NCBI GenBank assembly: GCA_015061685.1
Contig: SUWD01000008.1
Location: 1-64,000 of the forward strand
DNA length: 64,000 nt
Source: Lentisphaerota bacterium
GTDB lineage: Bacteria > Verrucomicrobiota > Lentisphaeria > Victivallales > Victivallaceae
Direction of reading: 5' to 3'
The notes beneath the pieces are model-generated. The model saw only the letters and a program-made list of their open reading frames with translations, was not told where the DNA came from and did not search any database. The position numbers were made by a program, and so were the translations under genes. Below are positions 541 through 39,868 of this stretch, piece after piece (the first letter of the stretch is position 1; each line of letters begins with the position of its first letter).

Positions 541-2415
541 ATGGCGGATATGATGAAGGTTAAAGATGCGGCAACTCTTTGGGGATTGACTCCCCGTCGG
601 GTGTCTGAGCTGTGCAAGCAGGGGAAAATTGCCAATGCGCGCAAAGTCGGGAAAGCATGGATGATTCCTGCAAGCACTCCCAAACCGACCGATCAGCGTA
701 TTCGCAGCGGAGCTTATGCAAAAGTCGTTTTGCAAGAAAATCTGCCGCTTCCCATTGGCATTTCAGATTACCGTCTGGCTTCGACAGAATATTATTACAT
801 CGACAAAACTATGCTTATCAAGGATTTTCTTGATGAACGCCCGATGGTCTCTTTGTTCACCCGTCCCCGCCGTTTCGGAAAAACGCTCAATATGGATATG
901 CTTCGTACCTTTTTTGAAAAAAGCGATGAAGATACTTCTATCTATTTCAGAAACAAAAAAATTTGGACGTGCGGGAAGAAATACCGTGATTATCAGGGTA
1001 AATATCCGGTGATTTTTGTCTCTTTCAAGGATGTCAAATGCGAAACGTGGCAAGACACCTACGGGAACATTTACAAACTGTTGCAGAAAGAATTTGAACG
1101 CCATCTTGAATTACTGGAAAGTCCAGCACTCAACGAATATGACAAGCAGAAAATAAAAGATTTTCTCTCCGGTAAAGCGGACGAAAACGATTGTATGGCG
1201 GCATTTGCGACCCTTTCTGAAATGCTTGACAAACACTACGGTATTGCTCCAATTATCATTGTCGATGAATACGACACCCCTATCCAGCAGGGATATATGC
1301 GTGGTTTTTATGATTCCGTCATCCGCTTTATGCGTAATCTTTTCTCCGGAGGCTTAAAGGATAACAAACATCTTTCTTACGGTTTTCTGACCGGAATTTT
1401 GCGTGTGGCAAAGGAAAGTATTTTCAGCGGCTTGAACAACCCTAAAATCAATACGATCCTTGAAAACAAATACAGTCAGTATTTCGGATTCACGCCGGAT
1501 GAAGTCAAGGAAATGGCACGTTATTACAAGGCAGAAGATAAGTACGATGAAATTTGTGCCTGGTACGATGGATACCGCTTCGGCAAGTCGGAAATCTTCA
1601 ATCCGTGGTCAGTCATCAACTATTTCAGCAACGAGTGCGAACCCAGAGCTTTCTGGCAATCCACCGGCAACAATGAGATCATCGGCGAAGTTCTGACCAA
1701 TGCGGATGAGTCCATTTATGAAAAACTCAATCAATTGCTCCAGGGAAAATCCGTTTTGACTTACATCGACCCCAGTGTGATTTATCCGCAGATAAAGAAC
1801 AATCCGTCATCAGTTTACAGTTTTCTGTTGGTGGCGGGATATTTGAAAATCACCAAGGTTGAACCGTCATTTAATGGTGACTTTATGTGCGAAGTTGCCT
1901 TGCCCAATAAAGAAATTGCCTACGTTTACAACAAGGAGATCCTGCAAACGTTGACCGATATTATTCCGCAATCCACCGCAATCAGCATTCAGGAAGCGAT
2001 TTATTCCGGAAACAGCACCGCGTTGCAGAACCTGTTGCAAAAACTTCTGCTGGAATCGGTAAGCAATTTTGACACTGCTCATGAAAACTTCTATCACGGA
2101 TTGGTTCTGGGGTTGTGCGTAATTTTAGATAATCGTTACGAAATCACCTCCAACCGTGAATCCGGCACAGGCAGATACGATATTGCCTTGACACCGAAAA
2201 CCGGAAATCTGCCGGGTATCCTGATCGAATTGAAAGCAGCCAAAGACGCGTCCGCCGAACAGCTCAGTCAACTGGCACAGGACGCCTTGACCCAAATTGA
2301 AGAAAAGCAGTACGATACAACCATGAAAACCAGCAACATCTCCCCCATTTTCAAATACGGCGTTGCTTTTAGCGGAAAGAATGTGGAAATCTGCGTAGCA
2401 GAGGAGGGTAAATAA
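541..2415 (+). CDS. HTH + AAA-ATPase-like + PD-(D/E)XK nuclease fusion protein
   Basis: 624 residues. Residues about 5-45 form a MerR/excisionase-like helix-turn-helix (KVKDAATLWGLTPRRVSELC, then GKAWMIP). Residues about 70-330 match the AAA-ATPase-like family of DUF1703 proteins, with the nucleotide loop RPRRFGKT at 108-115 and a Walker B-like IIIVDEYDTP near 238-247. The C-terminal 90 residues carry a PD-(D/E)XK nuclease signature (G-GRYDIAL, then ILIELKA). The start is set by AGGAGA six bases upstream. Such proteins are common and often multicopy in gut anaerobes and their role is not settled. The HTH fusion plus the operator repeats upstream suggest autoregulation (inference). Its stop overlaps the next ATG (TAATG). 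Confidence 0.85.
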   Translation: MADMMKVKDAATLWGLTPRRVSELCKQGKIANARKVGKAWMIPASTPKPTDQRIRSGAYAKVVLQENLPLPIGISDYRLASTEYYYIDKTMLIKDFLDERPMVSLFTRPRRFGKTLNMDMLRTFFEKSDEDTSIYFRNKKIWTCGKKYRDYQGKYPVIFVSFKDVKCETWQDTYGNIYKLLQKEFERHLELLESPALNEYDKQKIKDFLSGKADENDCMAAFATLSEMLDKHYGIAPIIIVDEYDTPIQQGYMRGFYDSVIRFMRNLFSGGLKDNKHLSYGFLTGILRVAKESIFSGLNNPKINTILENKYSQYFGFTPDEVKEMARYYKAEDKYDEICAWYDGYRFGKSEIFNPWSVINYFSNECEPRAFWQSTGNNEIIGEVLTNADESIYEKLNQLLQGKSVLTYIDPSVIYPQIKNNPSSVYSFLLVAGYLKITKVEPSFNGDFMCEVALPNKEIAYVYNKEILQTLTDIIPQSTAISIQEAIYSGNSTALQNLLQKLLLESVSNFDTAHENFYHGLVLGLCVILDNRYEITSNRESGTGRYDIALTPKTGNLPGILIELKAAKDASAEQLSQLAQDALTQIEEKQYDTTMKTSNISPIFKYGVAFSGKNVEICVAEEGK

Positions 2416-2429
2416 TGGAAGAACAGTAA
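2415..2429 (+). other. Four-codon mini-ORF: interrupted true start of the following gene
   Basis: A strong ribosome site (GAGGAGGG, 2401-2408) precedes an ATG that overlaps the upstream stop. It is read as Met-Glu-Glu-Gln and then TAA. The same frame remains open after this stop, through HLQTENDEIFKTFTAAIKTAAE and on into the gene called at 2496-2849. A single CAA-to-TAA change would explain it. A sequencing error is possible. Confidence 0.6.
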
Positions 2430-2495
2430 CATTTACAAACAGAAAATGATGAAATTTTCAAAACATTTACTGCTGCAATAAAAACTGCCGCAGAA

Positions 2496-2849
2496 ATGAC
2501 CCATTGCTACAATCTCTTTCAATCCAAAAACAAAAAGATTGATGAAGTTTTATGCATGGATAACAAGGAAATCCTTTGGCAAACATTGCAAGACTATCTC
2601 AAAGAATACGGATCGTTTATCAATAACACCACTGTTATTACAGGAATTTACATTTATCAGGTCAGTATCGAGCAGTACAATGCCATGACAGTAGTTGACA
2701 TAAAGCAGCAACTGGAAAGATTAAAACGCATCGTAATTGCAAAAGAAATTATGCATTCTGTGTACCAAAAATCTTTCAAAGAATGCCTTAAAAAGATTTT
2801 GCAAAAGACTAAACTGTTTCCAAAAGAAGCATTGGACATCATTTTCTGA
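2496..2849 (+). CDS. Hypothetical protein, probably N-terminally interrupted
   Basis: 117 residues from the first in-frame ATG after the interrupting TAA. There is no good ribosome site at this ATG, whereas the upstream start at 2415 has one, so the intact gene was probably 2415-2849 (about 144 residues). The protein is mostly helical and basic, with no motif I recognise. Its tight coupling to the HTH-ATPase-nuclease gene suggests they were expressed together. It may now be a pseudogene or be made at a low level by reinitiation. Confidence 0.5.
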   Translation: MTHCYNLFQSKNKKIDEVLCMDNKEILWQTLQDYLKEYGSFINNTTVITGIYIYQVSIEQYNAMTVVDIKQQLERLKRIVIAKEIMHSVYQKSFKECLKKILQKTKLFPKEALDIIF

Positions 2850-2873
2850 AATTCCTAATAACTGGACTATAAC

Positions 2874-3383
2874 ATGATTGAAATAATAACTGCCGACATC
2901 ACCAAATTGGAAGTCGATGCCATTGTGAATGCCGCCAACTGTTCGCTTCTGGGCGGCGGTGGCGTGGATGGCGCGATCCACCGGGCTGCCGGACGGGAAC
3001 TTCTGGAAGCCTGCCGTAAATTCAACGGTTGCGAAACCGGCGAAGCCCGCATTACGCCCGGATTCAAATTGCCCGCCAAGTTCGTTATCCATACTCCCGG
3101 CCCGGTCTGGCACGGCGGCAATCTCAACGAAGCAGAACTTCTGAAAAACTGCTACATAAACTCACTTGCTCTGGCAAAAGAAAACCTTTGCCGTACGATC
3201 GCATTCCCCTGCATTTCTACCGGAGTTTACCATTTTCCCAAAGAGCAAGCGGCAAAAATCGCCATCGAAACAGTTTTAAGCAACCTCACCGCCCCTATCG
3301 AAAAAGTGATTTTCTGCTGCTTCTCCGACTCCGATGCCGAAATCTACTGGGCAATCTGCAAAAAGATGAATGTTAATCCTTGA
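2874..3383 (+). CDS. Macrodomain protein (O-acetyl-ADP-ribose deacetylase, YmdB-like)
   Basis: 169 residues forming one macrodomain. The ADP-ribose binding elements are clear: [26 protein letters not shown] at residues 15-40 and the ISTGVYHFP loop around 115-123. The family removes ADP-ribose from proteins or nucleic acids or hydrolyses O-acetyl-ADP-ribose in the cytoplasm. The length is normal for YmdB-type enzymes and all key glycines and the Asn/Asp pair are present. It lies among toxin and defence genes, where macrodomains can counter ADP-ribosylation; that link is only suggested by context. There is no clear ribosome site before the ATG. Confidence 0.9.
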
Positions 3384-3407
3384 AAAACCACATTTGTTCC
3401 AACAAAA

Positions 3408-3456
3408 AAACTCCGGCAAAGATATGCTTTTGCACATCACTACCGGAGTTTATTTT
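3408..3456 (+). terminator. Rho-independent terminator after macrodomain gene
   Basis: AAACTCCGG (3408-3416) pairs perfectly with CCGGAGTTT (3443-3451), followed by ATTTTT. The loop is long (26 bases) but can fold further (CAAA/TTTG). Confidence 0.65.
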
Positions 3457-3610
3457 TACACCATACCGAAAAGTTCCATTTGCTCCTTCCATGAATACGG
3501 CAAGGTAGTGTCGAGTTGGGTGAGCGATAGTGTCCATGGGGCTTTCCCGGCAAAGATGGCATCCACGATCGGCGGAGCGAGCAAGGCAAGGCGCAGAAAA
3601 CGCCTGACAT

Positions 3611-3922
3611 ATGAGGTGTGAACGCCCACTCCGGAATCTGCGGACAGGGAAAGAATTCACATCAAAAACATTCATCATTCCCCCGCCGCCCAAACGGAGC
3701 TTGTTTGAAGTGGCAGTCGAAGTCCTGCGACTTGCTAAAATGCCGATGAATACAAGGGAAATCATCGAGTGGGCGATCGAGTTGAAACTCTGGCAGCCGA
3801 CCGGCACAAAAACGCCCGAACAAACGCTTTACGGAGCAATCCACCGTGAGAACAAGACCAAAGAACAGCCACGCATTGTCAGAAGCGACCTCAAAGGCAA
3901 GTTCATATATGCCGGAGAATAA
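3611..3922 (+). CDS. HARE-HTH (winged helix) domain protein, small
   Basis: 103 residues. Residues about 30-100 match the HARE-HTH (HB1/ASXL/restriction endonuclease HTH) fold: SLFEVAVEVLRLAKMPMNTREIIEWA, then TPEQTLYGAIHREN and a final FIYA strand. This domain is usually fused to restriction enzymes or chromatin proteins and is thought to read modified DNA. Here it stands alone, so this may be the remnant of a larger gene. The first 25 residues look unlike a domain start and no ribosome site is visible, so the true start is uncertain. Confidence 0.6.
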   Translation: MRCERPLRNLRTGKEFTSKTFIIPPPPKRSLFEVAVEVLRLAKMPMNTREIIEWAIELKLWQPTGTKTPEQTLYGAIHRENKTKEQPRIVRSDLKGKFIYAGE

Positions 3923-3938
3923 TACTTAAAACATATGC

Positions 3939-4011
3939 ATTATGCTCCAGAGTAACATATAGCCAACTTGAAAAAAGTTGGTTTTATGCTATATTACGCT
4001 TGGAGCGTAAT
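3939..4011 (+). promoter_or_regulatory. Promoter with two palindromic operators before the zeta-toxin gene
   Basis: TTGAAA (3968-3973) and TATATT (3990-3995) are spaced by 16 bp. A perfect inverted repeat ATTACGCT-TGG-AGCGTAAT (3993-4011) overlaps the -10 box. A degenerate version, ATTATGCTCCAGAGTAAC (3939-3956), lies upstream of the -35 box. This arrangement is typical of autoregulated toxin-antitoxin operons. Confidence 0.65.
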
Positions 4012-4027
4012 GGAGGTATTACCGATT

Positions 4028-4618
4028 ATGAGTGCAAAGAAACAACCGATTTGTTATATCGTTGCCGGACCGAATGGTGCCGGTAAGACTACTTTTGCAC
4101 TTCAATATCTCCCCAAAATCGTATCGTGCAACAACTTTATTAATGCCGATGAGATTGCCAAAGGCGTGTCCCCGTTGAACTTTGAAGCCGGTTTGTTACA
4201 GGCAAGCAAGATTTTTTTGCAATCTCTGAACCGGAAAATTGAGAACAAAGGAACTTTTGCTTTTGAAACAACTCTTTCCGGGCGGTCATATTTGACGCAG
4301 ATCCCTAAATGGCAGCAAGATGGATGGAAAGTTGTCCTGATTTATCTCTATATCCCCAGTGCTGAATTTTCAGCGTTCCGGGTGCAACAGAGATTTGAAC
4401 AGGGTGGTCATAATGTTCCTGCGGATGCCATTATCCGCCGCTACCCCCGAAGTATCAAAAACTTGTTTTTGTACTCTGAAGTATGTGACCAAACCTTTTG
4501 TTTCAGCAATGAACAAGGTATGGTAGCTTCCGTGTTTGAAAGAACCAAAGGACAGCCTGTTGAAATCATCGATAAAGTAACTTACTCAAGAATCATGGAG
4601 GTAGTAAACCATGAGTGA
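4028..4618 (+). CDS. Zeta-toxin-like P-loop kinase
   Basis: 196 residues from the chosen ATG, which follows GGAGGT; an in-frame ATG at 3968 is also open but precedes the promoter's -10 box. The Walker A motif GPNGAGKT is at residues 14-21, followed by NADEIAKG and FETTLSGR, the pattern of zeta toxins and related nucleotide kinases. Zeta toxins phosphorylate UDP-N-acetylglucosamine and so block cell-wall synthesis; other members of this broad family act on different substrates. The next small gene overlaps it by 8 bp and may encode its partner. The substrate here is unknown. Confidence 0.8.
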   Translation: MSAKKQPICYIVAGPNGAGKTTFALQYLPKIVSCNNFINADEIAKGVSPLNFEAGLLQASKIFLQSLNRKIENKGTFAFETTLSGRSYLTQIPKWQQDGWKVVLIYLYIPSAEFSAFRVQQRFEQGGHNVPADAIIRRYPRSIKNLFLYSEVCDQTFCFSNEQGMVASVFERTKGQPVEIIDKVTYSRIMEVVNHE

Positions 4619-5405: not shown

Positions 5406-7652
5406 TTATGCCAAACGGTAAACGCTGGCAGATTTTGAAGAATTTCTGACGGTTTCCGCAACGATAGAGCCGTTTTCAATCAAGGTGTCAATGATTTTAC
5501 CGAACACCTCGGCAGACTCATGCATCCGCTTCAGCAAAGCTCCGTGCTGGTATTTTCCGCCATGCTCTCTGATATAGCGGATTGCCTTGCGACACTTCTC
5601 GTCAAACGAGTTTTCATAAGAATAGGCGTTTGCCATAAACAATGCCTGCTCGGTAGCATAGGTGACAAATCGGCTTGCCCAGTTGACCGCATCCAAAGTA
5701 ATTACAGGATTGGTAACATCGGCACTCACCGCATAGATGATTGCAAGTTTACACACTTTTTCAAATGCACGAGTCCAGAATGCCATCGGAATAACTACCT
5801 GCCGTGCCTCATACTCGTCATAGCGTTTATTGAACAAGGCGTTCAATTCCTCTAACCGGGCTTCAGCTTCATCCGTGGAGTGGATAACTGTCGGTTGCGG
5901 ATTGACCGCAGCCAGATTGCCACCGTTGCCATATCCGAGTATGACATCGATTTTTCGACTAATGCTTTCGGGTTCTTCGATAATTCCTGCTTTCTGATGA
6001 GTTCCCCGCTTCCCGGCATCAATGACCATACAGCGAGCCAACAAGCCGTTGGTCAACACCCGGTTGCTCAATGACTCATAAAAGAGTTTCGGTATCGCCG
6101 TCCCGAGGATGGTAAGATATGGGTAAAAGATAACATCGTCATTGCCAATTGTATCTTTCCTGATTTTATCCCTTGGAATCGCTCTTTTACGGGTTTTATA
6201 GATGTTGTTTGAGGAACTGTAAACCCGCAGCATTTTTTCAATGATCGCTTCAGCCCGTGACTCTTTGGTGTTTTTCAGCGTATTGAAGAGTGTATCGACT
6301 TCATCGACTTGAAGCAGCAATGTCGGATTTACGAACAATGCATCTTCCAGACCTTCGCCCGAAGCAAAAGACTCCGCAACTCCGCCGCAAATATTATGGT
6401 TTGCTGCGATGTGCATATTTACACTGCGGGGGTGGTTTTTGCCAACACCGGAGTTCGCCAGTGAAATCAGATAGATGTTCGGACGGTTGTTCCGATCATC
6501 CCGGACTTTTCTGCCCAGCAAAAACGACAAAAAAGCAACTGCTCCGCAAAAGGCAAGTACCCGGTTCGGCTGTGGTGCACTGGACATAATGAAATCGGTA
6601 TATTCATCAATAAAACCGGGAATATGCAACAAGTCTTTGGACAAACTCCCCGGATCTTTGAACTCCTCGGCGATGTCCTTGCTTACAGTTTCTGCTTCGG
6701 GCGTTATCGGAACAGAATTCAAAACTGCTTCTTTCGGTTGACCGTAACCTTGAGCTAATAAGTCTGCCGCCGCTTTGCTGAAGTCACCATTATGACGGAG
6801 CAATGCATAGGCGGTAAACGCAGTATAGCCTTTATTCGGTTCAAACGGATCGGCATTGGAAGAAAAGACATAAAATATGCCATCTTTCAGGGTCGCTGAA
6901 TGTTGATCACCAATCTTGCCGGGTCGTTGCCAGTACTGGTTGCCATCCGGCAGAGTCCGCATGAGTTTCCAGCCGTAAAAATTGAGCATCTCACCGAAAT
7001 TTATCCGCTCGTTGAAGTCATCTCCAGGGCGTTTTTCAAAGTTGGAATACGCTGATTCATACATAGTGAAATTCTGCGGCAAAACAGGCTCTGCTGGATG
7101 TTTTTCCGCTTTGATTTCATCAAGCTGCGTTGCCGTATTGAGCAGCAAGTCCCGTTCTTCAGCCGTCAAAATCGGCAAGTTTGCATAGTCCCCTTGCATA
7201 AGCGTATAGCCGTCACTCGGTGAACACAGAATAAGTCCGCCTTCGCCACGGGTTTCAATGAGCGTAACAAGTTTATCATTACGGATGCCCTGCGCCAGTT
7301 TGGTGTTGCCGCTGACAACTTCGGCACAGCGGTACGCCACATGAAAGCCACCCGACTGCGTTTGCTCAATGACCAGTTTGGACTTCAACGCTACCGGAAT
7401 CTGTACTTCCCACGCCGGATACAGTTCGCCGTGGTGGTCAAAGTCGATGACTTCCAGATTACCGGAAACCTTGCCGCAAATCAGACAGATCGCATTGTGC
7501 CGGTCGCTGAACCAACTTTCCACATCCGCAGTTACCGGACGGTGTTCCTGATAATTCTTCCACGCCATAACGGGGCGTTTCAGAGTTTTGTCAGCAGGTA
7601 ACACCGCCAAACCCGCCGCCAAAAATTTGAGTGCTGTTTCTTTTTCGATCAT
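5406..7652 (-). CDS. Prim-Pol / DUF3987 helicase-like replication protein
   Basis: 748 residues. The N-terminal 1-160 region is a bifunctional DNA primase/polymerase (archaeo-eukaryotic primase fold): EVIDFDHHG with Asp70 and Asp72 as metal ligands, SGGFHVAYR at 100-108, and ETRGEGG-CSPS at 133-145. The C-terminal part matches DUF3987, a helicase-like ATPase: Walker A SGVGKN (401-406) and Walker B LLQVDEVD (446-452). The protein ends in a winged-helix-like segment. AAGGAGA precedes the ATG. Such fusions replicate plasmids, phages and integrative elements, so this gene marks mobile-element DNA. It is transcribed towards the toxin pair and away from a repeat region that could be its origin. Confidence 0.85.
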   Translation of the reverse strand: MIEKETALKFLAAGLAVLPADKTLKRPVMAWKNYQEHRPVTADVESWFSDRHNAICLICGKVSGNLEVIDFDHHGELYPAWEVQIPVALKSKLVIEQTQSGGFHVAYRCAEVVSGNTKLAQGIRNDKLVTLIETRGEGGLILCSPSDGYTLMQGDYANLPILTAEERDLLLNTATQLDEIKAEKHPAEPVLPQNFTMYESAYSNFEKRPGDDFNERINFGEMLNFYGWKLMRTLPDGNQYWQRPGKIGDQHSATLKDGIFYVFSSNADPFEPNKGYTAFTAYALLRHNGDFSKAAADLLAQGYGQPKEAVLNSVPITPEAETVSKDIAEEFKDPGSLSKDLLHIPGFIDEYTDFIMSSAPQPNRVLAFCGAVAFLSFLLGRKVRDDRNNRPNIYLISLANSGVGKNHPRSVNMHIAANHNICGGVAESFASGEGLEDALFVNPTLLLQVDEVDTLFNTLKNTKESRAEAIIEKMLRVYSSSNNIYKTRKRAIPRDKIRKDTIGNDDVIFYPYLTILGTAIPKLFYESLSNRVLTNGLLARCMVIDAGKRGTHQKAGIIEEPESISRKIDVILGYGNGGNLAAVNPQPTVIHSTDEAEARLEELNALFNKRYDEYEARQVVIPMAFWTRAFEKVCKLAIIYAVSADVTNPVITLDAVNWASRFVTYATEQALFMANAYSYENSFDEKCRKAIRYIREHGGKYQHGALLKRMHESAEVFGKIIDTLIENGSIVAETVRNSSKSASVYRLA

Positions 7653-7763
7653 ACTTTCTCCTTAAAATGTTATTGATTATGTTTCTGACACTTATCACGT
7701 CTGTCCGGGGACGGTTGTATTGCGCTACATCATAGTCGCACCTCCCTTTTGTTATGCACTGCT

Positions 7764-8460
7764 CTTCACTGGTGTTATCGCAAAAAGCCCCTGAAAAGGT
7801 CACACCTCTTCAGAACTTTTTCTTAAAAAACTTCAACCCCCTATCGAGGTTATTTCCAAAAACATCCTCAACTGTGCCCCTCTTTGTCACCTTATTTTCA
7901 AAAAACATAGTCTCTCCACTGATGATTATCAGAAAAAGCACTCAAAAGCGTTACACCCTTTTTCAACTTTTTTCAAAAAACTTCAATCCTCTACCGGGGG
8001 TATATCCAAAACGACACCCCGTTGTGTTGCTGATTTTGGAAAAATTCCCCAAAAAGCATCGTCTCAACACTGGTTACTATCAAGATTACCCCCTCGTTTT
8101 GTTGCAGCGTTTTCAAAAAAAATTTGAAAAAGTTTTTATATTCACACCTGCCATATCACCGGCTTGGAGCTGTTTTGAGCCATTTATACCTCAAACGCAG
8201 GCTGCAAAGAATCGTGTTGTACTCCACCACTACCGGGGTTATTTCCAAAAACACCCCCTGTTGCGCTGTTGAATTCAGAAAAAATTCCGAAAAACATCAT
8301 CTCCCACCACTGACTGTCGCAATTACCCCCCTGTTTTGTAACACCCTTTTTCAACTTTTTTTCAAAAATTTTTATCTCACCACTGCTGTATATCACTTTT
8401 TTCCCATAAAAAGGTCACACCCGTTTTTGAATTTTTTGAAGAAATCTTACCGCGCGGGAA
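7764..8460. repeat. Degenerate tandem repeat region (~150-bp unit)
   Basis: The word CACTG in similar context recurs at 7767, 7917, 8068, 8308 and 8381, and a related CCACTACCGG occurs at 8228. The first three are spaced 150 and 151 bp; later ones fall near half-unit distances. Each unit repeats the order: CACTG-block, ACACCCTTTTTCAAC-type block, pyrimidine/oligo-A block, CTACCGGGGTTATTTCCAAAAAC-type block, then an AATTCC-AAAAACAT block. The copies are perhaps 60-75% alike. Open frames crossing the region show the same periodicity and look like by-products. It lies immediately upstream of the Prim-Pol gene, so an iteron-like origin is one possibility; a decayed satellite is another. Confidence 0.6.
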
Positions 8461-8637
8461 TAAAAAGCTGATAACAGGCTCTGATACCACACAATCTTCC
8501 CGAACGGTAGTATTTATCCCGACAGCACTGCGAGAAATATCCATATATTATTGCAACTCAACTGGATAACTAAAAATAGCACGCTAATATATGTATAGTG
8601 CAAAGTAAAATCTTAAATAGCAAGGAGATACATAAAA

Positions 8638-8868
8638 ATGACTAAAGAACAGATGCAAAAAGAGATCGCCCGCCTGAACCACAAAATTGAGCTGGAGCTG
8701 ACGGAAATCAAGAGTCTCGCCCAGTGGATTCTCAACGGAGCAGATAACCCCTACAACATCACCTTCCACACGCCGAGCCGGATGCTTGCCCAGAGCGAAA
8801 ATACGCTCAAGGAACTCATTGCCCGCCGCGACACCCTCAAAGAAATCCTCAAAGATATGGAGAACTGA
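8638..8868 (+). CDS. Small coiled-coil protein of mobile-element type
   Basis: 76 residues preceded by AAGGAGATA. The protein is almost entirely helical with heptad-like leucines (EIARLNHKIELELTEIKSLA, then LKELIARRDTLKEILKDME), suggesting a dimeric coiled coil. There is no known domain. It is the first of three tightly spaced small genes transcribed away from the repeat region and the Prim-Pol gene. Such clusters are typical of integrated plasmids and phage-like elements; its function is unknown. Confidence 0.65.
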   Translation: MTKEQMQKEIARLNHKIELELTEIKSLAQWILNGADNPYNITFHTPSRMLAQSENTLKELIARRDTLKEILKDMEN

Positions 8869-8871
8869 ATT

Positions 8872-9102
8872 ATGGATCCGTGGTTCAATAAAAAATTCTG
8901 TGACAGATGTGGCAAATCGCTGGCAGACGGCTTTTCAATGAGCCGCTTCAACACCCAGGCATTGTGTTTTGACTGCCTTGAAGAGGAGCATCAGCATCCG
9001 GACTACCTGAATGCGGTGGATGCCGAGCTTGCGTCATTCCGCTCCGGCAATCGGAACTTTGAGGGCATCGGCTGGCCCGGCAAAAACGGGAGGATAAAAT
9101 AA
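8872..9102 (+). CDS. Small zinc-binding protein
   Basis: 76 residues, starting 3 bp after the previous gene. A treble-clef or LIM-like zinc site is suggested by CDRCGKS at residues 10-16 and CFDCLEEEHQH at about 31-41. The C-terminal half is polar and contains no further motif. Its stop overlaps the next start (TAATG). It may bind DNA or a protein partner of the replication module; the function is not known. Confidence 0.65.
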   Translation: MDPWFNKKFCDRCGKSLADGFSMSRFNTQALCFDCLEEEHQHPDYLNAVDAELASFRSGNRNFEGIGWPGKNGRIK

Positions 9103-9302
9103 TGGCAACCACCAAGACTAACATCTCCGTACAGCTTACTGGCACGGATGGAAATATTTTTTGCGTGATTGCCAAAGTCCGTGAAGCACTCCGCCGGAAC
9201 GGACGCACCGACCTCATCAAGGAATTCACCGATTACATCACAAGCAGTAACTCCTACGAAGAGGCTCTCTGCCGCGTGATGGAATATGTCATCGTAAAAT
9301 AG
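9102..9302 (+). CDS. Hypothetical small protein
   Basis: 66 residues, with the ATG overlapping the upstream stop and GGGAGGA just before it. It begins with a beta segment (NISVQLTGTDGNIFCVIAKV) followed by helices (EALRRNGRTDLIKEF). This layout is seen in small accessory proteins of conjugative and integrative elements, but I cannot name a family. It is the last gene of the three-gene unit. Confidence 0.6.
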   Translation: MATTKTNISVQLTGTDGNIFCVIAKVREALRRNGRTDLIKEFTDYITSSNSYEEALCRVMEYVIVK

Positions 9303-9564: not shown

Positions 9565-9756
9565 ATGAATGACCGTTGGCTGTCCATGAAAGAGATATGC
9601 ATCTATTTGGGTGTAAGTCATGATACTGTCTCGCGCTGGATTGCAAAAGGTATGCCCGCAGTAAAAATGGGTAAATGCTGGAAATTTAAGCAGTTACTTG
9701 TTGATGAATGGATTATTGCCAATGTGGCAAAACATAAACAGGCTTCTAAAGGTTAA
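9565..9756 (+). CDS. Small HTH (excisionase/MerR-like) DNA-binding protein
   Basis: 63 residues: an HTH_17/excisionase-type domain with MKEICIYLGVSHDTVSRWIA followed by the wing GKCWKFKQLLVDEWI. It opens the defence operon, 4 bp before the cytosine methylase gene. Proteins like this are either excisionases of mobile elements or transcription regulators. The position at the head of a restriction-type operon behind a palindrome favours a control-protein role, but an excisionase is not excluded. Confidence 0.75.
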   Translation: MNDRWLSMKEICIYLGVSHDTVSRWIAKGMPAVKMGKCWKFKQLLVDEWIIANVAKHKQASKG

Positions 9757-39507: not shown

Positions 39508-39868
39508 TGGTGGAGGTGAGGGGAGTTGAACCCCTGTCCCAACGAGGAATGATGAAGACATCTACATGCTTGTTCCATCTTCAATTGTTTTTCGTCCTCC
39601 GTTCCGCCAATGGACAGGCGGTCCTTCAGAACAGGCATTCTGAAATCTCGCAGAAGTTCCGAATGCCGGGAATCTCTGCCAGGGCGCTGGATGACGCCGC
39701 TTACACCTTAGCACCCGGTCAGGCGCAGCGACGTGGCGGGAAAATTATGCCGCCAGAGCAAACTCTTCGTTCGCATTTATTGTTTTAACCGGTGATTAAC
39801 GAGGCCAACGGTCATCCTCGGCATGCAATCAACCCAGTACCTTCGCCGGTCGAATCCGGAACACCCCC
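39508..39868 (-). ncRNA. ssrA: Transfer-messenger RNA (tmRNA)
   Basis: The 5' end GGGGGTGTTCCGGATTCGAC and 3' end GGGGTTCAACTCCCC-TCACCTCCACCA form the tRNA-like acceptor (7 bp with one G-U) and T arm, with CCA encoded. The tag frame lies at 39745-39774: GCG as likely resume codon, then codons giving ANEEFALAA and TAA. The RNA rescues stalled ribosomes together with SmpB, whose gene lies 1.9 kb away. The length (361 nt) is normal for a one-piece tmRNA. Its 3' end faces the defence island, a classic site for island integration. Confidence 0.97.

Follow-up and report, generated by a model that had tools for sequence, protein, structure and literature searches.

A degenerate repeat array before a Prim-Pol primase gene in a Lentisphaeria bacterium resembles phage leader elements and may serve as a phage-responsive promoter region

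The 64,000-nucleotide (nt) stretch of Lentisphaerota DNA analysed here (the window; the first 64 kb of the 96.5-kb contig SUWD01000008.1, assembly GCA_015061685.1) contains an intact Prim-Pol/DUF3987 primase gene on the minus strand and, upstream of it, an array of eight degenerate repeat units at 7763-8448 on the same strand. An earlier reading of the sequence alone (the sequence-only reading) had described a recurring unit here, in DNA without a credible gene (7653-8637), with a period of 150-151 nt in the first copies and a half-unit later. Our data indicate that the recurrence is far above chance, since the self-match of the array stretch at a lag of 75 nt was 0.40 (z = 7.8) while in 500 dinucleotide shuffles the largest z never exceeded 5.1 (95th percentile 3.85). 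The periodicity is thus real, but its basic length is 75 nt throughout; the strong 150-nt period arises because the two main unit types, A (U8, U6, and U1) and B (U7, U5, and U3), alternate, with U4 and U2 as variants. This alternation agrees with the earlier description of alternating blocks rather than a simple iteron. The array includes an 88-nt stretch without a recognisable unit (8137-8224). The start-to-start distances of the units are 77, 75, 162, 79, 72, 75, and 75 nt. Tandem Repeats Finder did not detect the repeat in the array stretch because the copies are too diverged.

All eight units are oriented toward the Prim-Pol gene, and the last unit ends approximately 110 nt before its start. 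The suggested tie between the repeats and the Prim-Pol gene of a mobile element is supported. Units were placed by a profile search whose model was built from the same units, and the profile scores are therefore not independent. The features are given below with their best matches to phage leaders, that is, to the regions before phage genes (L-numbers label individual loci).

8377-8448, minus strand: U1, type A; profile match; best phage leader L063, score 46 against a shuffle maximum of 26.
8303-8371, minus strand: U2, variant with an A-like left half and a G-rich spacer; profile match; leaders L063 (35) and L120 (34) against a shuffle maximum of 26.
8226-8296, minus strand: U3, type B; L112 exonuclease leader, 61 nt, 87% identity, 75 bits, E 2e-16; score 85 against a shuffle maximum of 24.
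8137-8224, minus strand: 88-nt spacer with no recognisable unit; best leader score 25 against a shuffle maximum of 28.
8063-8134, minus strand: U4, variant sharing its middle block with U2; profile match; leader L186, 33 against a shuffle maximum of 25, a weak match mostly to an A/T tract.
7987-8055, minus strand: U5, type B; L112 leader, 51 bits; score 59 against 26.
7912-7983, minus strand: U6, type A; L059 (divergent from a phage lexA gene), 87 nt, 79% identity, 77 bits; L063 exonuclease leader, 48 bits.
7837-7908, minus strand: U7, type B; L112 leader, 36.5 bits; score 39 against 26.
7763-7833, minus strand: U8, type A, closest to Prim-Pol; L063/L059, score 38 against 25.
7725-7745, minus strand: leader mini-open reading frame (mini-ORF), a Shine-Dalgarno-like GGAGG followed by ATG ATG TAG.
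5406-7652, minus strand: Prim-Pol and DUF3987 primase gene, intact, 748 amino acids, the presumed target of the array; Pfam Prim-Pol 6.7e-12 and DUF3987 1.6e-8; phrog_3022 DNA primase 3.8e-60.

Type B units contain short inverted repeats (GGGG..CCCC, and in U7 also GAGG..CCTC), while type A units have no clear inverted repeat. Some array units may be dead. No further copy of the array was found in the bacterium's own genome, where the other matches were 17-32 nt long and at chance level. A distant blastn search of plasmid and phage collections, including 72,556 plasmids, gave no match to the array; two type A patterns had no match in IMG/VR, and the short motif GAAAAAGGGTGTNAC was not enriched in relatives.

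When related genomes were searched at the DNA level, the array matched two short phage-like contigs, G068:C80 and G031:C32. One copy in G068 (L059, 17-103) has a LexA-like repressor gene on one side and, on the other, an apparent divergent gene start that has a ribosome-binding site. A further copy overlaps a sigma-factor ORF at its 3' end and stands right before a DUF3799/exonuclease VIII gene, which in G031 is followed by Sak4-like genes and genes resembling those for single-stranded DNA-binding protein (SSB). With the exonuclease protein as query we retrieved 80 related loci from IMG/VR; the phage leaders compared here all come from this one exonuclease family, which sets the range of phages sampled. 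In their exonuclease leaders, approximately 20 of the closer relatives have a lineage-specific element that follows a sigma-like gene and precedes the start codon of the exonuclease. The exonuclease begins an operon that also includes SSB and DUF3987 genes where the contig extends far enough. Phage copies of the element are mostly intergenic, point toward a gene, and stand shortly before its ribosome-binding site. Alignment A1 contains two conserved blocks,.AC and.ATA.

On the sense strand, the similarity between array and phage leaders is well above background. The strongest sense-strand matches were L059 (77 bits; 87 nt, 79%), L112 (75 bits; 61 nt, 87%), and L063 (48 bits), while the best of 100 dinucleotide shuffles reached 31.9 bits, as did the best reverse-strand match, which lies in poly-A/T tracts. 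In the rest of the window, outside the array, no leader match exceeded 34.6 bits. Taken unit by unit, eight of eight exceeded their own shuffles. Types A and B match different phages better than they match each other, with scores of 71 for U6 and L059, 85 for U3 and L112, and 21 for U6 and U3. L112, together with L110, had been retrieved through its exonuclease, independently of the array. Six further matches (L084, L200, L201, L231, L233, and L235) lie inside genes or without a fitting context and were set aside.

The element also recurs within single phages. Second copies of a phage's own element precede a C5-methyltransferase gene in L106 (E 4e-17), L120 (1e-17), L125 (4e-14), and L113 (2e-13), and the element of L110/L111 recurs before another operon (8e-13); weaker second copies occur in L109 (1e-5) and L122 (0.003). 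A UBA5247 prophage (G039:C21) has three copies, one before a DUF2924/serine-recombinase operon, where it adjoins a CI-like repressor gene, one before the exonuclease, and one before the methyltransferase. Such single copies before exonuclease, methyltransferase, and recombinase genes are distributed like a promoter or operator rather than like an origin. In the exonuclease leader of L110/L111 (GACGGTTTTTCCTGT..ACAGGAAAAACCGTC) and in the leader of L112 (ACCGGGGT..ACCCCGGT), the element is overlapped by inverted repeats, which are perhaps an operator or an RNA hairpin on top of the putative promoter.

The gene directly upstream of the exonuclease belongs to the phrog_1740 sigma factor family in 10 of 10 cases tested (E 1e-8 to 1e-12). 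These upstream proteins gave weak Pfam Sigma70_r2/r4 matches, and a profile of 17 of them matched solved sigma factors in the PDB (sigma-H 3e-11, sigma-E 6e-8). In an AlphaFold model of a phage sigma protein (mean predicted local distance difference test score 80), a disordered linker connects two confidently modelled helical domains. The Foldseek matches of this model are sigma factors, with TM-scores kept low by the uncertain position of the domains relative to each other. Across 17 phages, the seven most similar pairs of putative promoters all go with similar sigma proteins (normalised score at least 0.44). In the pairs L105-L107 and L105-L106 the exonucleases are 0.91-0.95 alike, the sigma proteins are less similar, and the putative promoters are dissimilar. 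Promoter and sigma similarity were correlated (Mantel p 0.0085), also when exonuclease similarity was taken into account (partial p 0.028). By these comparisons each phage lineage appears to have its own version of the element, and similar versions go with similar predicted sigma proteins. A profile search of the array-bearing bacterium's own genome, which is approximately 94% complete, found no phage-type sigma factor and four host-type sigma-like genes, two of them beside protein-kinase genes; an activator of this type would therefore come in trans.

Comparable series precede related genes in other elements. The single Prim-Pol protein gave no match in scans of genome and viral contigs, and Prim-Pol relatives were therefore taken from whole genomes. 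Four of these (L049, L051, L054, and L055) have a promoter-like series just upstream of a Prim-Pol or DUF3987-type homologue, in the same orientation as in the window and unrelated to the window array in sequence. One L049 unit matches the L110/L111 phage leader (91% over 45 nt, 64 bits) and related elements (60, 53, and 40 bits), and a unit further along the series scores 43 bits against the L241 element, itself similar to the L107 class. The L049 array thus appears, from these matches, to hold classes that go with different predicted sigma groups. Two 91-nt units are present in L054 and three in its relative L055 (89% over 259 nt), from which it follows that unit number changes. Each of the five array leaders has a Shine-Dalgarno-like sequence ahead of an ORF of 2-4 codons (single-case shuffle frequencies 3.5-13%). 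L049, L054, and L055 carry a serine recombinase and DUF2924, and L054 also a HindIII-type restriction-modification pair. Just before Prim-Pol, L049 and L051 have in common a terminator-like hairpin, TTGCGCAG..CTGCGCAA-TCTTTTT and TTGCGCGG..CCGCGTGA-TATTTTT, which is perhaps an attenuator. Most Prim-Pol homologues have no array directly upstream (e.g., L039-L042, L044, L047, L050, L052, L053, L056, and L057), and several of the array-less homologues closely follow another ORF.

Further genes of the window are the following:

8638-9302, plus strand: three small divergent ORFs, two of them in phage families of unknown function, phrog_27033 (8872-9102) and phrog_1933 (9102-9302).
9565-9756, plus strand: helix-turn-helix (HTH) protein of the HTH_17 family, excisionase/AlpA-like; Pfam HTH_17 5.7e-9; phrog_66 excisionase and transcriptional regulator 1.6e-10.
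9760-31733, plus strand: full DISARM class 1 set, a C5 methyltransferase (drmMII-like), drmD, drmMI, drmA, drmB, and drmC, with 3-4 extra genes between drmMI and drmA.
541-4618: consecutive genes for an AAA-ATPase-like/PD-DEXK_9 protein with HTH_17, a Macro-domain protein, a HARE-HTH protein, and a zeta-toxin-like ATPase.
39508-39868, minus strand: transfer-messenger RNA (tmRNA) gene with its 3' end toward the defence genes; integration could plausibly occur here.

The only Rfam matches in the window are this tmRNA and one tRNA. Among the features looked for in a PICI-like or P4-like satellite, a primase or replication gene and an AlpA-like regulator are present as the predicted Prim-Pol/DUF3987 and HTH_17/phrog_66 genes, and no structural gene was seen among the window genes examined, which do not include every ORF. 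The AlpA/excisionase-like protein and the DISARM set fit the proposed satellite-like, defence-carrying nature of the element.

Our data suggest, on a balance that tips modestly in its favour, that the tandem array consists of copies or mimics of phage promoters and serves the primase gene of a mobile element as its promoter region, to be switched on by the sigma factors of infecting phages. In the phages, a phage-specific element, presumably a promoter read by the phage's small extracytoplasmic function (ECF)-like sigma factor, precedes the exonuclease operon and one or two others. On infection by a related phage, or on its induction, the phage sigma factor would also act at those array units that match; Prim-Pol would be turned on, and the element beside the DISARM defence genes would be replicated. 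Since the units are of more than one class, one element could respond to several phages. The array may have been built from the promoters of several phages or may have converged on them.

Several observations weigh against this proposal. U2 and U4 exceed their shuffles only weakly. The spacing between the two conserved blocks varies by class, and core promoter boxes (-35 and -10) at constant spacing are not apparent. Promoter similarity also follows exonuclease similarity when sigma similarity is taken into account (partial p 0.035), about as strongly as it follows sigma similarity; common descent therefore explains part of the co-variation. The units of L051, L054, and L055 found no phage match among the leaders of the one exonuclease family. 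With regard to satellite status, no integrase was recognised in the window, whose contig starts within or close to the element, and a search of the window for a repeat of the tmRNA 3' end, as a second att copy, found none.

We considered whether the units are instead operators, bound by phage repressors (LexA/S24-like or CI-like), such that resident prophages keep Prim-Pol off until induction. In phages the element does occur near repressor genes and before lytic operons, with copies beside a repressor gene in G068 (L059) and in the UBA5247 prophage, and type B units have short inverted repeats. However, the neighbouring repressors are of different kinds (S24/LexA-like in L062, CI-like HTH in L234) while the layout of the element stays constant, type A lacks a clear inverted repeat, and the elements keep a single orientation, immediately behind sigma genes and a short way ahead of other genes. 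This makes an operator array unlikely in our view. Decay offers another account, in which a former prophage's promoter was amplified by replication slippage and now has no function. The diverged units, the one stretch without a unit, and the absence beside Prim-Pol of the module's other phage genes would all be expected of such a relic. That types A and B each resemble a different phage more closely than they resemble one another, that Prim-Pol is intact, and that sequence-unrelated series precede the genes of four other elements argue otherwise, and we hold a relic to be unlikely to a similar degree.

A defensive role without any effect on Prim-Pol is a further alternative: the array would bind the phage sigma-RNA polymerase as a decoy and lower phage transcription. 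Many copies of several classes with DISARM genes nearby are consistent with a decoy, but eight sites per chromosome are few for titration, all units face Prim-Pol, and series precede Prim-Pol/DUF3987 genes in other elements too, so that we judge it rather improbable. The sequence-only reading had pointed to iteron-like origins of integrated plasmids, and direct repeats, A/T tracts, and an adjacent primase gene are indeed what such an origin would show. Dispersal of the unit next to unrelated genes, which that reading had named as evidence against itself, was found in the phages and redirected the interpretation away from an origin: the repeats are not confined to an origin and occur singly before exonuclease, methyltransferase, and recombinase genes. 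The units are, moreover, long and of different classes, and the lack of a match in the plasmid collection points the same way, leaving an iteron-type origin very unlikely. Decayed protein-coding repeats of 25 codons, suggested by the period of 75, by brief open stretches of the minus strand (e.g., FEKKLKKGVT), and by the phage copy that overlaps the 3' end of a sigma ORF, can practically be dismissed, since no frame is open through the units (11-16 stops per minus-strand frame, not significantly fewer than in shuffles), spacings of 77 and 79 are not multiples of three as 72 and 75 are, and most phage copies are intergenic.

Satellites in the literature we searched are tied to their helper through one repressor or one activator, and in the openly licensed literature searched we found no description of arrays of phage-promoter mimics. 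It is a real possibility, though one we place a little below even, that a tandem collection of mimics, wired to a primase and with each unit responding to the sigma factor of its own phage lineage, represents an undescribed way of detecting many phages, in which single units come and go as the phages change. If true, this would be a modular, multi-input phage sensor that is readable from sequence; it would predict which phages trigger the element, connect the sigma factors of phages with the promoters that they read, and supply sigma-promoter pairs ready for use. Very little is known of phage biology in Lentisphaeria, and the proposal opens to experiment the question of how infection is detected there by such elements, which in this genome lie beside DISARM genes.

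Among known systems, the P4 satellite has Ogr-responsive promoters. P2 and P4 activate each other's transcription (PMC6092414). The likeness to P4-type satellites is that satellite promoters would be read by a regulator supplied by the helper; the differences are that eight promoter-like units of more than one class stand here before a primase gene, that the presumed regulator is a sigma factor rather than an activator, and that no P4-specific genes were identified. AlpA, on which Gram-negative phage-inducible chromosomal islands (PICIs) depend, requires the helper for its expression (PMC6092414), and these islands and phage-inducible chromosomal minimalist islands (PICMIs) have AlpA, Int, and Pri genes (PMC6092414, PMC10803314). 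The window element is similar in its primase gene and AlpA/excisionase-like HTH gene, and defence cargo is common in satellites (PMC9122126); it differs in having no recognised integrase and in its 30-kb neighbourhood of defence and other genes. In Gram-positive PICIs (SaPI, StCI) a phage protein removes the Stl repressor, as in S. thermophilus (PMC13376191). A phage protein would trigger the element in both cases, but theirs is protein-protein derepression with one repressor, not promoter mimicry. The phage proteins studied here share the two-domain type of ECF and phage-encoded sigma factors and are accompanied by a lineage-specific element before several phage operons, while promoter recognition by them is presumed in the phages considered here. 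Iteron-type plasmid origins likewise have direct repeats beside a replication gene, whereas the units here are 75 nt long, of several classes, and single before non-replication genes in phages. We claim no membership in the PICI or P4 families for this element; by analogy, its array would work like helper-responsive satellite promoters.
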